Notes under the pieces: generated by a model | Databases searched by the model: none | Seen by the model: the letters and a program-made list of their open reading frames with translations, nothing else | What the model was told of the DNA's origin: nothing | DNA from: Bdellovibrio sp. KM01 | GTDB lineage: Bacteria > Bdellovibrionota > Bdellovibrionia > Bdellovibrionales > Bdellovibrionaceae | Length of the DNA: 64,000 bases | Assembly: GCF_013752535.1 (NCBI RefSeq) | Contig: NZ_CP058348.1 | Coordinates: forward strand, 558,001 to 622,000 | Direction: 5' to 3' | Program-made: the position numbers and the translations under genes | In this document: positions 50,772 through 55,908 of the stretch, piece by piece | Position numbering within the stretch: the first letter of the stretch is position 1 | Layout: each line of letters starts with the position of its first letter

Positions 50772-50849
50772 CCCTCACCTTGACGCTTTCTAAATCGGAT
50801 ACATGATTAACTTATGACCCTGCACTCACAGCAGGGGAAAGGTGAGACC

Positions 50850-53225
50850 ATGTCATTCGTATCTGGCTACCTTCCAGTTATTCCGCTAAGAAATGCCGTT
50901 CTGTTTCCCGGTGTCAGCATGCCTTTGCGGGTTGGAAGAGACCGCAGTATCCAAGCTTTGCAAAAAGCCTTAACCAACCAAAAGTGGATCGTTTTACTGA
51001 CTCAGAAAAATCCTGACGGCACTGTGGAAAAGCCCGAGGATATGCATACTGTCGGTACTCTATGTAAAATTGAATCCCATAAAAAAGAAGACGATGGAAG
51101 CTTTACTATTTTCGTCAATGCTCATCAGCGCATTCGTGCGCGTGAAATGAGATTTGAAAACGGAATCTATGAGACTTTGACGGAAGGAATTGAAGATATT
51201 CTGGTTGCTGATCAGAAGACCGAGGAAGCCTTGCTTGAAAGCCTCAAACAGATCGCTTACGACACCGTTGATTTGCTGGGCAAACACATGCGCCGGGTAA
51301 AAGAATGGATCGCAGAGATCGAAGAGTTATCACTCCTGACCAATGTTTGTGCAGCTCATGCAGACTTCACCCTTGGTGAAAAGCAGGGGATTCTGGAAAC
51401 TTCAGATGTCCGTGAACGCGCATTGAAAATTCTGGATCTGATGAAGGAACAAAAAGAACGTCTGAAAATTCAGATCGATATCCGTCAGAAACTAAGTGAA
51501 AACATCAATCAAAGCCAGAAAGAAAGCATATTGCGCGAGCAAATGCGGGTCATTCGCGAACAATTGGGCGATGAAGACAACAATGATGTCGCCGATAACT
51601 TCCGTAAAAAAATTCTTGCGGCGGGAATGCCCGACGAGGCGTTGGCGTTGGCGAATTCTCAGTTGAAGCGATTGGAAAATATAAACTCGGCATCGCCCGA
51701 ATATCAAATCATCCGTACGCATCTGGATTTGATGACAGATTTGCCGTGGAGTAAATCTTCGCCGGATCAAGAAATTGATCTGGAGAAAGCCGAAAAGATT
51801 TTGAACGAGGATCACTTCGGCATGGATAAAATTAAAAAAAGAATCCTGCAGCATTTGGCGGTGATGAAGTTGCGTAAATCGCATCAGGGTTCGATTCTGT
51901 TATTCGTAGGACCTCCGGGAGTAGGTAAAACTTCACTCGGTAAAAGTATTGCGCGCGCGCTGAATAAAAAATATGTGCGTGTTGCCTTAGGGGGTGTTCG
52001 TGATGATGCGGAAATCCGCGGTCACCGTCGCACCTATATCGGCGCAATGCCGGGTCGAATTATTTCTGGAATTAAGAAAGCCGGTGAAAACGATCCTGTA
52101 TTTGTACTGGATGAGATCGATAAATTATCGCGCAGCTTTAATGGCGACCCTGCAAGTGCCCTTTTGGAGACTTTGGACCCTGAGCAGAATAATACTTTCC
52201 AAGATCACTACCTGGATACGGCTTACGATCTTTCAAAGGTGCTATTTATCGCCACGGCTAATGCGCTCGATACAATTCCGGGTCCTCTGTTGGATCGTAT
52301 GGAAGTGATTGAACTTACGGGCTATACAATTGATGAAAAGAAAAATATCGCGAAACGCCACTTATGGCCGAAGCAGCTCAAAGAGCACGGTATTGAGGAG
52401 TCTCAGTTGGAGATCACTGAAGGTGCTTTGACGAAAATGATTACCGATTACACTCGTGAAGCGGGTGTGCGTGAACTGCAACGTAAAATCGCGACGATTT
52501 GTAAATTTATGAGCTTGAAGATCTTAAAATCCGAAGGTGCAAAACTGATTGTTGATATCAATGATCTGGATGACATCTTTGGTGCGGAAAGATTCTCGGC
52601 GGATCTAACGGAAACAGCGTTGCCTCCAGGTGTAGTAACGGGGCTTGCATGGACTCCGGTGGGCGGTGATATCCTGTTCATAGAAACGGAAGAAATGCCG
52701 GGCACAGGCCAGTTGTTGCTTACCGGGCAACTGGGTGAGGTGATGCAGGAATCCGCTAAGATCGCGATGAGTTTATTGAAGGCGCGGTTGCCTTTAATGG
52801 ATCCGTCGGTGGATTTCACAAAAAAAGAAGTTCATGTCCATGTTCCTGCAGGCGCCATCCCTAAAGATGGTCCCTCTGCTGGGGTGACGATGTTGACGTC
52901 GATTGCTTCAAAAATGTTGAAAAAACCGGTGAATCCAAAATTGGCGATGACAGGTGAAATCTCCCTTCGCGGAAGTGTTTTACCCGTCGGCGGAATCAAA
53001 GAAAAAATCATTGCTGCTCATCGGGCGGGGGTGACTGAAGTAATCTTGTGTAAGAAAAACGAAAAAGACTTACGCGAGGTTCCTCAAGAGATCAAATCAA
53101 CGATGCAATTCCACTTCGTCGATAACGTAAATGATCTTTTGAAGATCGCTTTGGAAATCGATTTCCCGGCCTACAAAATGAGTGCGAACAACACAACGCC
53201 TCTATTTCCCAGAGCCCTTAACTAA
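50850..53225 (+). CDS. lon: ATP-dependent protease Lon
   Basis: This is a 791-residue protein starting [15 protein letters not shown]; the ATG at 50850 follows GGGGAAAGGTGAG. The order is LON N-domain (about 8-200), coiled linker, AAA+ domain with Walker [23 protein letters not shown] and sensor residues, then the Ser-Lys protease with [10 protein letters not shown] (catalytic Ser) and [15 protein letters not shown] (catalytic Lys). It degrades misfolded and regulatory proteins in the cytoplasm. Its stop codon lies inside a 14-base tandem repeat that borders a long hairpin. Confidence 0.97.
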
Positions 53226-53240
53226 AAGGTACGAACTAAA

Positions 53241-53324
53241 AGGTACGGACACACTTTCTCCAAACCCAAAAGCCACAGATTAATCTCTGTGGCTTTTGGG
53301 TTTGGAGAAAGTGTGTCCGTACCT
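53241..53324. repeat. Perfect 39-bp inverted repeat (element B)
   Basis: Arms 53241-53279 and 53286-53324 are perfect reverse complements around the six-base loop TTAATC. The inner part (AAAAGCCACAGA and partner) looks like an ordinary terminator stem; the outer part, beginning AGGTACGGACACACTTTCTC, resembles palindromic REP-type repeats. The left edge is a 14-base tandem repeat (ACTAAAAGGTACG twice, 53221-53247) and the right edge a 10-base one (CCTATTGTC twice). It separates the convergent lon and lspA genes. Confidence 0.9.
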
Positions 53325-53332
53325 ATTGTCGC

Positions 53333-54289
53333 CTATTGTCTTGGTTTGTCGTCGGGATTGATGCCGTCATTGAATTCTACGACATTCACGGTGCGCTCGG
53401 CTTTGATGACGTTCAGGCGCTTGGTGATTTCTTCTGCCAGGGCTTCCAGTTCTTTGAATTCGTCACCTTTACGAACTTTCAGCAAAGGTATGTTTTCACC
53501 TCTCATAATACCATACAGGTACCTTTCAAAGGCATAGATCGGTCCTGCGATACGGTGAGAAAGAACTTTACCGACGGCGAAAGTGATGGCACAGAACGCC
53601 ACACAGATGATAATGAACGTGATCACATAAGGAACCAGGAACTTATTCAATAGGAACTGGTTATTCCCCACTAGCTCCTGAATCGTCACACGCAGATAAG
53701 TGTAAGAGAACACCAGGCTGATCAGCGTAAGGCTTAAACCCACCGCCATCATCAGGATGCAATATTTTAACTGGAACGAAAGATTCACCCAGAACTTTTT
53801 GCGCGAATTGTTTTCCGGCCACAGCAATTCACCTTCACGAATGATCGCAAACACGATCAGGGCATAACCGACCCATTGCAAAGCATCTGCAATATTGAAT
53901 GCCGGACTGGAAAGAGTGGGTGTGCCTACAACGATAAAGTCGACAACATATCCCCACACGATACGATCCGCGACGTTCCCTAAAATCCCGCCGATCAAGA
54001 TCGAAAGACCACAACGCAGAGTCAGGGACTTAATTGGTAACATGTACTGGATAAGAGCATAGGTACACAAAAGAAACGCGCCACCCGTCGAAAGGGAAAC
54101 GATACGCAAAACTGAAGGCAAATCTGAAAACAGGCCTAGCATTGCGCCGTGATTGTGGTGCAATACAAAATGTAGTGGGCCATGGGATTTCACAGAGGTG
54201 ATATCCGTTGCCCACAATTTAGTTACGCGGTCGACCAACCAGGTCGCAACAAGTGGAAGTATAACAATGAGCCATTCGCGCTTTTTCAT
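53333..54289 (-). CDS. lspA: Lipoprotein signal peptidase (LspA) fused to a HAMP domain
   Basis: This is a 318-residue protein. Residues 1-155 form a signal peptidase II with four helices and both catalytic aspartates: GNVADRI (D108) and FNIADA (D135), plus D20 near the start. LspA removes signal peptides from diacylglyceryl prolipoproteins. Residues 165-243 add two more transmembrane helices and 245-295 a HAMP-like cytoplasmic module (IAGPIYAFERYLYGIMRGE, GDEFKELEALAEEI), then a short tail without an output domain. LspA is normally about 165 residues, so half of this protein is extra. Confidence 0.88.
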   Translation of the reverse strand: MKKREWLIVILPLVATWLVDRVTKLWATDITSVKSHGPLHFVLHHNHGAMLGLFSDLPSVLRIVSLSTGGAFLLCTYALIQYMLPIKSLTLRCGLSILIGGILGNVADRIVWGYVVDFIVVGTPTLSSPAFNIADALQWVGYALIVFAIIREGELLWPENNSRKKFWVNLSFQLKYCILMMAVGLSLTLISLVFSYTYLRVTIQELVGNNQFLLNKFLVPYVITFIIICVAFCAITFAVGKVLSHRIAGPIYAFERYLYGIMRGENIPLLKVRKGDEFKELEALAEEITKRLNVIKAERTVNVVEFNDGINPDDKPRQ

Positions 54290-54480: not shown

Positions 54481-55908
54481 ATGCGACATTTGATTTTTGC
54501 TGCGGCTGTTTTGTTTAATTTTTCGGCACATGCGTCTTTGGATGCTAAGGGTGCTGCTGAAGAGATGCAAAGTTTGGCCAAGAAGCACAAGGTCCAGCTG
54601 TCGGATTTGGGCATTTATGCGTCTGTTGGTGAGGGTGAGAATTTAAAGGTTCTGCTCGACAACAATGGTTCCAAAATGATGATTCCGGCGTCGATCACGA
54701 AAGTGGCGACGGCTTCTGCGGTTTTGGCGAATTTCCCTCCGGGCCACAAATTTAAAACTCAGATTTGGACAACTGGTGATGTGGATAAAAAAGGCATCCT
54801 TAAAGGCAATGTCTATTTGAAAGGTGGCGGAGATCCTTCTTTCGTTTCCGAGAACATGTGGTTCTTGGTGAATGCGTTTCTGCGTAATGATATTAAACGA
54901 GTTGAGGGTGACATCATCGTTGATGATTCGCTTTTTGATAAAATGCGCTACGATATCAGCCGCCAAAAAGAACGTGTTGATCGCGCCTATGATGCTCCGG
55001 TGGGGGCTATGTCTTTCAATTGGAATTCTGTAAATATTTTCGTTCGTCCCGGAGATAAATCTGGCGACGACGCGCGCGTTTATATCGATCCAGAAAATGA
55101 ATACATCCGCTTGGTCACGAAAGCGAAAACGACTTCCGGTTCTGATAACAAATTGCTCGCCGATCGCAAGGAAGATCCCAAATTTGATGGCGATCTTTTG
55201 CACGTGGGTGGCAGCATCGGTAAGAATAATAAAGAAATCACGGTGTTTAAGAACATAACCCAGCCAGACCTTTGGTCAGGTTATAATTTGAAGTCTTTCT
55301 TGGCTCAAAGAAACGTCACGGTCACAGGTGCAGTGAAATCTGGCGCCACTCCGACAACGGCGACGCTTGCTGCAGAATCCGAAAGCAAAGCAATTGAAGG
55401 CATCGTTGCAGATATGAATAAATTTTCGAATAACTATGTGGCCGAGATGTTGACGAAAAACATGGGCACAATGAAAAAAGACAAAGGTGTGACGTTAGCT
55501 GACGGCATGGTGGCCATTCAAGAACACATGCAAGCTTTGCAAATCCCTAAGGATCAATACCACTTAGAGAGTCCGTCGGGGCTGACGCGTGAAAATAGAA
55601 TGTCGTCTTTTGCGATGTGGAAAGTGCTTCAGCATTTGCGCAACGACTTCCGCGTGCAACCTGAGTTTCTTCAAAGTCTTCCCATTGCTGGAATAGATGG
55701 AACCCTCAAAAAAAGAATGAAGGGAACAAATGCGGAGCGCTGGGTACGTGCTAAAACGGGATACATAAATAATGTTGTTTCTCTTGCGGGTTACGCAGGT
55801 TTAGAGGACGGAACAGTTATTACGTTCTCCTTTATATACAATGGCGCAACGGATGAAGCGATGGTTCGACAATATTTTGATAATCTTCTGAAAAGTTTGA
55901 TAAAATGA
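54481..55908 (+). CDS. dacB: D-alanyl-D-alanine carboxypeptidase/endopeptidase, PBP4 type
   Basis: I start at the ATG at 54481, after GGAGGAATTA, which opens a signal peptide (ending AHASL) and gives 475 residues; a longer frame runs through the upstream hairpin and is not credible. Class C penicillin-binding motifs: S71-x-x-K74 (PASITKVATA), S316-N-N (KFSNNYVAEM), and K425-T-G (RAKTGYIN), with the family's large inserted domain between the first two. It trims pentapeptides and cuts cross-links. In Bdellovibrio, PBP4-family enzymes round prey walls, so this copy may serve predation or self-growth. The stop overlaps the next ATG. Confidence 0.93.
   Translation: MRHLIFAAAVLFNFSAHASLDAKGAAEEMQSLAKKHKVQLSDLGIYASVGEGENLKVLLDNNGSKMMIPASITKVATASAVLANFPPGHKFKTQIWTTGDVDKKGILKGNVYLKGGGDPSFVSENMWFLVNAFLRNDIKRVEGDIIVDDSLFDKMRYDISRQKERVDRAYDAPVGAMSFNWNSVNIFVRPGDKSGDDARVYIDPENEYIRLVTKAKTTSGSDNKLLADRKEDPKFDGDLLHVGGSIGKNNKEITVFKNITQPDLWSGYNLKSFLAQRNVTVTGAVKSGATPTTATLAAESESKAIEGIVADMNKFSNNYVAEMLTKNMGTMKKDKGVTLADGMVAIQEHMQALQIPKDQYHLESPSGLTRENRMSSFAMWKVLQHLRNDFRVQPEFLQSLPIAGIDGTLKKRMKGTNAERWVRAKTGYINNVVSLAGYAGLEDGTVITFSFIYNGATDEAMVRQYFDNLLKSLIK

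Follow-up and report, generated by a model that had tools for sequence, protein, structure and literature searches.

HAMP modules follow a membrane helix and are built as helix–connector–helix, with a proline in helix 1 and an Asp-Glu pair at the start of helix 2; an output domain behind them is usual, not obligatory. The signal peptidase LspA, for its part, is generally regarded as a single enzyme serving a single lipobox. The published consensus of this box reads [LV][ASTVI][GAS]C, and in Myxococcus xanthus the genes lspA3 and lspA4 lie in the myxovirescin cluster (both from excerpts of PMC8689077). The open-licence literature in PMC yielded no paper joining LspA and HAMP in Bdellovibrio and none naming an FQNC box; lipobox adhesins of Bdellovibrio are the subject of PMC11003981, in whose main text the letters QNC are absent.

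The window, i.e. the whole stretch of 64,000 nucleotides of Bdellovibrio sp. KM01 analysed here, contains a gene in which an LspA domain is joined to a HAMP-like tail. The features to which we refer below are the following:

53333–54289, minus strand: lspA–HAMP fusion gene coding for 318 residues, defined by its open reading frame, its domain matches and its conservation in relatives.
53840–54250, minus strand: LspA (peptidase A8) domain, residues 14–150, recognized by PF01252 and by structure matches to 5dir and 6ryo.
53939–53941, minus strand: predicted catalytic Asp 117 (VVDF).
53885–53887, minus strand: predicted catalytic Asp 135 (FNIAD).
53549–53800, minus strand: two predicted extra membrane helices, residues 164–247, with a short loop between them (AF2), which align with the N-terminal region of the stand-alone 2TM-HAMP family.
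53375–53560, minus strand: divergent HAMP-like module, residues 244–305 (SHRIAGP ... RKGDEFKEL), suggested by hhalign, AF2 with VIA-align and a PDB profile search.
54481–55908, plus strand: gene of a D-Ala-D-Ala carboxypeptidase, presumably of the PBP4/DacB type judging from its sequence, divergent from the fusion gene.
53238–53327, unstranded: inverted repeat with 42-nt arms (98%) and a 6-nt loop.

The frame of 318 codons has no internal stop. Gene 50814–53225, whose product we take from its sequence to be a Lon-type protease, is convergent with the fusion gene, and the inverted repeat between the two genes is terminator-like; its arms are of unusual length for a terminator. The carboxypeptidase gene is a conserved neighbour, with a homologue near 44 fusion loci. 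The fusion itself recurs as a single gene at 21 named loci (52–82% identity) and is present in 91 of the 96 genomes of the same order (A1 search plus a repeated search of eight genomes). This conservation bears out the fusion announced by the original prediction and rules out a frameshift or two separately annotated genes.

The N-terminal half is a complete LspA with both catalytic aspartates, as had been claimed. PF01252 matches residues 14–150 with 83.7 bits (cut-off 25, E 1.9e-23), and the full-length AF2 model displays the four-helix LspA fold: its matches to LspA structures have Z values of 14.7–15.2, e.g. 15.2 for 5dir_C (rmsd 3.2, 138 residues aligned) and 14.8 for 6ryo_A (rmsd 3.8, 148 aligned). 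This model, built on 22 sequences (pLDDT 70.6), is weak in the tail, which was hence folded separately. Across 110 aligned fusions (the window plus 109 of 110 loci, the truncated L164 being dropped and some genes having been fetched twice), D117, D135, N46, N105, D108, N132 and K24 are invariant, and D20 occurs in 109. Together with three divergent copies inspected by eye, the catalytic pair is found in 112 of 113 fusions: L298 and L300 retain both aspartates and L299 has neither. Members of the LspA superfamily cleave diacylglyceryl pro-lipoproteins and are globomycin-sensitive; the fused LspA may do likewise. Note that the exceptional copy (L299, or L322:3218–4108, in G211, a genome of 1.5 Mb) has kept its HAMP-like tail and is possibly a pseudo-enzyme.

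On its sequence, the fusion is a paralogue within the LspA superfamily and not the housekeeping lspA, because it scores below the cut-off of the lspA equivalog TIGR00077 (NCBIfam; 50.4 versus 73.95 bits) and falls outside the canonical clade. In an unrooted FastTree phylogeny of the LspA domain (163 columns, 161 sequences), the 51 canonical LspAs, ten of which come from loci outside the phylum, form a single clade with a support of 0.993, separate from all 110 fusions. The fusions also show systematic changes, all of which sit beside catalytic residues: (i) after NxGA, the canonical A becomes M or I and the canonical F becomes L; (ii) GGA becomes GGI; (iii) in place of the canonical I behind FNxAD there is a Q and then a W.

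The two further helices predicted behind LspA are borne out by AF2, which, within the tail (residues 160–305), places helices at 170–207 and 211–262, joined by a loop of few residues, and a third one at 280–305; the second of these continues into what resembles the helix pair of a HAMP domain. The protein ends about 13 residues beyond this last helix, so that an output domain is indeed absent. The identity of the C-terminal module is less straightforward. The original prediction had named an insignificant HAMP profile score as counting against it, and this is what the single protein gives, PF00672 finding no match in it up to an E value of 10; support for HAMP comes by way of stand-alone relatives. 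More specifically, the profile built from the tails of 110 fusions, of which 72 pass the hhalign filter, aligns over its whole length with a family of stand-alone 2TM-HAMP proteins (hhalign, 99.8%, 3e-30), which in turn aligns with HAMP domains of the same genome (97.2%, 3e-11), while the direct comparison between the tail and HAMP gives 49% (P 1.8e-4, 60 columns without a gap); an earlier, narrower tail alignment had reached 13%, versus 0% for a reversed-tail control. Of eight stand-alone relatives scanned, four (L029, L032, L033 and L037) pass the Pfam cut-off for HAMP, and six of the 25 sequences in A3, a tail alignment that takes in the stand-alone proteins, match PF00672 at E ≤ 0.01.

Structure comparisons point in the same direction. 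Folded alone with A3, the tail reaches a pLDDT of 87.9, and its model matches WalK first (Z 9.0, rmsd 4.6, 154 residues aligned), an unrelated helical structure second and the HAMP segment of VicK third (Z 7.4, rmsd 2.3, 65 aligned); these Z values lie where a helical arrangement alone can score, so that they constitute support and not proof. Foldseek with the tail alone returned no match at E ≤ 0.001, and the A3 tail profile has its best PDB hit in the transducer of sensory rhodopsin II, which has two membrane helices and a HAMP domain (E 0.0014). Residues Q173, G249, R273 and D276 are invariant in the 110 fusions, P250 is present in 108 and E277 in 78 of them, and the tail follows the HAMP pattern described above, both in its predicted helices and in the position of its Pro and Asp-Glu residues. 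Altogether, these comparisons support the view that the tail is a 2TM-HAMP module of divergent sequence that lacks an output domain, HAMP-like rather than a member of PF00672; its HAMP-like part may modulate or couple the enzyme.

The genome of the window encodes one further LspA, a canonical one in a frame of 175 residues (G000 C1:3458658–3459089), which scores 136.7 bits against PF01252 versus 86.5 bits for the fusion in the same genome-wide search. Likewise, all 91 fusion-bearing genomes of the order have at least two PF01252 matches. Across the phylum, PF01252 has a match in 284 of 290 genomes, and the A1 fusion alignment in 288 of 290, many of the latter matches being canonical LspAs or stand-alone tails only. 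Other families of the phylum (f17, f16, f20, f12 and f26) contain divergent fusions as well, in some genomes more than one. At some loci the frame extends further: in L107:1633–3597, L108:2445–4418 and L109:246–2234, LspA-HAMP runs in frame into an outer-membrane-type protein containing a SCLTCHxNPQG motif (about 655 residues), and in L110:1924–3384 into a redoxin domain of the AhpC-TSA type (PF00578, E 9.2e-10; 487 residues), this last fusion adjoining the gene of a DUF4331 protein with a VLQNC box. An outer-membrane-type protein with a TSCLTCHYNP motif is encoded just downstream of LspA-HAMP in L156:2844–3998 and, as homologues, in eight loci of family f17; the L156 protein has no Pfam match.

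Outside the order of the window, the gene adjacent to the fusion frequently encodes a protein whose putative lipobox ends in polar residues. A polar box was called when a signal-like N-terminus ended in [FYL][NQT][NQH]C, and adjacency required the same strand and a gap of at most 250 bases. The 34 loci considered, a subset of the A1-search list, were picked before their neighbours were viewed; one of them, L166, comes from a genome of the order, where it is an additional and divergent copy. An adjacent polar-box gene is present at 14 of these loci, in 14 genomes, and missing at the other 20. The boxes include VLQNC, GYNQC, GYTHC, LYNQC, TYTQC, TYNHC, VFQNC, LFQNC, SYTQC, IFQNC and GFNHC. By their mature sequences, the adjacent proteins belong to four unrelated families, and nine of the 14 form one family, all nine with CxxCH; a fifth family is represented by L325, a locus added to the 34 and chosen for its pattern hit. 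With the same classifier, polar boxes were called in 14 of 42 adjacent genes versus 2 of 879 ORFs sampled from 864 kb of three genomes (Fisher 1.8e-18, the loci not being phylogenetically independent); among the other ORFs of the same loci, with L325 included, the count is 7 of 144. As for signalling, no constant gene of this kind stands beside the fusion, response-regulator-like genes being present at a few loci only.

Within the order, no polar-box gene is adjacent to the fusion. The same-strand upstream gene often encodes an SBP_bac_5 lipoprotein with a canonical lipobox (e.g. PF00496, E 9.8e-56, for the upstream neighbour at L132), and 12 of 50 order loci, some of which are the same gene fetched twice and three of which have no called fusion frame, show a canonical box in the gene immediately beside the fusion.

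The polar-box class itself is nonetheless present in the genome of the window. A census of 464 kb (the window plus 400 kb) had given a single clear polar box, GYQNC, with a second classifier also flagging GHSHC; as this was too few, the whole genome was searched by pattern instead. [FY][KNTHQP][KNHQ]C at 39–69 bases from ATGA has 113 matches, versus 46 for the reversed pattern. Among the matches listed, at least 13 proteins, from 12 families, begin with charged residues, continue with a hydrophobic segment and have a box that in every case reads [FY][QN]NC with S, A or G after the Cys; match 1222933 was left out because its frame is short. None of the 13 fits [LV][ASTVI][GAS]C. The class includes GH44-like, Ig-like or OmpL47-like surface and cytochrome-c-like proteins. 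Two related FQNC-box proteins are encoded at G000:C1:1342393–1344225 and 1381233–1383029, the first of which matches glycoside hydrolase family 44, and G000:C1:2574128–2575818 holds a head-to-tail overlap between two unrelated FQNC-box genes, the product of one of which ends in a cytochrome-c-like part.

In the 96 genomes of the order, [FY]QNC near a start codon has 1005 hits versus 174 for the reversed-pattern control, the count being above the control in 92 genomes, below it in two and equal to it in two. By contrast, none of 18 hits in 17 genomes of other phyla is signal-like. In family f17, [FY]QNC counts are mostly low and often near the control, and the related pattern [FY][NT][QH]C is broadly above control throughout the phylum, with no split visible by eye between fusion-bearing and fusion-less genomes, for which reason it was set aside.

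The five genomes of the order in which the fusion was not detected fall into two groups. G177 and G224, which belong to one genus and measure 1.2–1.3 Mb, have a canonical LspA only, and signal-like [FY]QNC hits amount to 0 of 2 in each. In G222, G246 and G278, in contrast, 8 of 8, 9 of 11 and 7 of 8 hits, respectively, are signal-like (two nested hits dropped). We considered these three genomes as counter-examples, i.e. as carrying the class without the fusion, and rejected them as such: in G222 and G278 the contig breaks off beyond the neighbouring genes, at the spot where the fusion should lie, and the carboxypeptidase neighbour was not found in G246 either, so that assembly gaps are the simpler reading. 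Note that a second, non-fused type of LspA (ENPGAFL[GS]LG; L320:84–947) exists in G278 (L301) and G246 (L309), with an FQNC-box gene about 0.8 kb away in G278.

We consider it somewhat more probable than its negation that the fusion is a dedicated signal peptidase II for the polar-box class of lipoproteins, equipped with a transducer-like tail. We favor this reading because it covers the second LspA copy, the kept catalytic pair with its changed neighbours and the genomic linkage to otherwise unrelated polar-box proteins; the separate lineage of the enzyme, the predicted folds and the occurrence of the class in the window's own genome belong to the same observed basis. The substrates would have a lipobox ending in [FY]-[QNT]-[NQH]-C in place of [LV]-[ASTVI]-[GAS]-C. 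Such a protein would be inserted by Sec, Lgt would lipidate the Cys of the box, and the fused LspA would cut before the lipidated residue. Within the membrane, the tail would most likely act in dimerization or in coupling, in the manner of sensory rhodopsin transducers, and may adjust the activity of the enzyme or connect its occupancy by substrate with a partner; envelope sensing is less likely than these roles, because the tail has no periplasmic part. Extended to the Bdellovibrionota as a whole, the proposal becomes tentative, with chances slightly short of even: two lines of maturation would coexist, canonical LspA on one side and, on the other, fused LspA for [FY]-[QNT]-[NQH]-C boxes on unrelated surface proteins, some of them resembling c-type cytochromes, the module tying the enzyme to a partner or checkpoint. 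The strongest points against a dedicated peptidase are that the Bdellovibrio fusion does not lie beside a polar-box gene and that there are only few genomes without the fusion to compare with, which are reduced; the lack of the polar-box class in G177 and G224 may thus have another cause, their genomes being reduced.

The original prediction suggested that the tail might be a HAMP gate that receives an envelope signal and switches the general lipoprotein peptidase on or off. The profile comparisons, the PDB search, the tail model and the four invariant tail residues do speak for a HAMP-like module. Gating of lipoprotein maturation in general is nevertheless unlikely, because a separate canonical LspA exists in the same genome, and the extra helices, joined by a loop of few residues, leave no room for a periplasmic domain that could sense the envelope. 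Moreover, the enzyme part is altered beside its active site, and what lies next to the fusion in other lineages suggests a particular class of substrates instead. One may turn the scheme around and regard the LspA part mainly as a receptor for pro-lipoproteins or signal peptides, whose state the tail relays to a partner: the architecture resembles that of a membrane receptor joined to a 2TM-HAMP transducer, as in the match to the sensory rhodopsin II transducer, and the L299 copy has lost its catalytic aspartates and kept its tail. This we hold to be quite unlikely, given the catalytic residues kept by all other copies, the missing output domain and the lack of a constant signalling gene nearby.

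The remaining two alternatives concern the substrates. Canonical LspA could handle the polar-box proteins as ordinary lipoproteins, the fusion serving another membrane peptide (related, for instance, to the SBP_bac_5 neighbour) and its adjacency to polar-box genes being secondary. The conserved SBP_bac_5 lipoprotein with its canonical box in the window's order and the presence of the class in three genomes without a detected fusion would fit such a division of labour, which we regard as decidedly improbable: the fusion adjoins several unrelated families that have only the N-terminal box in common, and Asn, Gln or His at position -1 lies outside the lipobox given in the excerpts of PMC8689077. 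Finally, the fusion could be a back-up or inhibitor-resistant LspA, for which lspA3 and lspA4 of the myxovirescin cluster provide a precedent (PMC8689077, in excerpt) and the changed residues near the active site a possible basis. It is however located between the lon and carboxypeptidase genes, with no antibiotic cluster in the flanks read, and is nearly universal in the order; a resistance role also leaves the linkage to polar-box genes unexplained, so that we judge it very improbable.

If the fusion is indeed dedicated to polar-box proteins, lipoprotein sorting would split into two lines within one cell, and lipobox predictors relying on the published consensus would miss the proteins of the second line. 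Predatory bacteria would gain unannotated candidate lipoproteins, 13 of them in this genome, and a change of LspA specificity would become directly testable in a known structure.

Comparison with described systems places the fusion as follows. The LspA1–4 set of M. xanthus likewise comprises several LspA copies in the genome of a predator, with proposed differences in substrate range; neither a tail nor a polar-box class is mentioned for them in the excerpts of PMC8689077. The stand-alone 2TM-HAMP proteins of Elusimicrobia, Sumerlaeota, Deltaproteobacteria and the window's own genome (L022, L024, L029, L033 and L044) are homologous to the whole fusion tail and share with it an FQxKY motif before the first helix, but have no peptidase attached, and three of them adjoin pilin-like genes; such genes lie directly before pilin-like genes at L022:3983–4854, L024:1841–3000 and L027:2–929 (Sumerlaeota and Deltaproteobacteria). 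In HtrII, the transducer of sensory rhodopsin II, and in the kinases WalK and VicK, two helices precede a HAMP domain as in the fusion, which, unlike them, has no kinase, signalling or adaptation domain; a HAMP-like tail without output domain on a peptidase is an unusual architecture. With canonical LspA (PF01252, peptidase A8; 5DIR and 6RYO), the fusion shares the fold, the catalytic Asp pair and the positions of the conserved Asn and Arg residues, and it differs from it by its lineage, its sub-equivalog score, its altered residues beside the active site and some 160 additional C-terminal residues.
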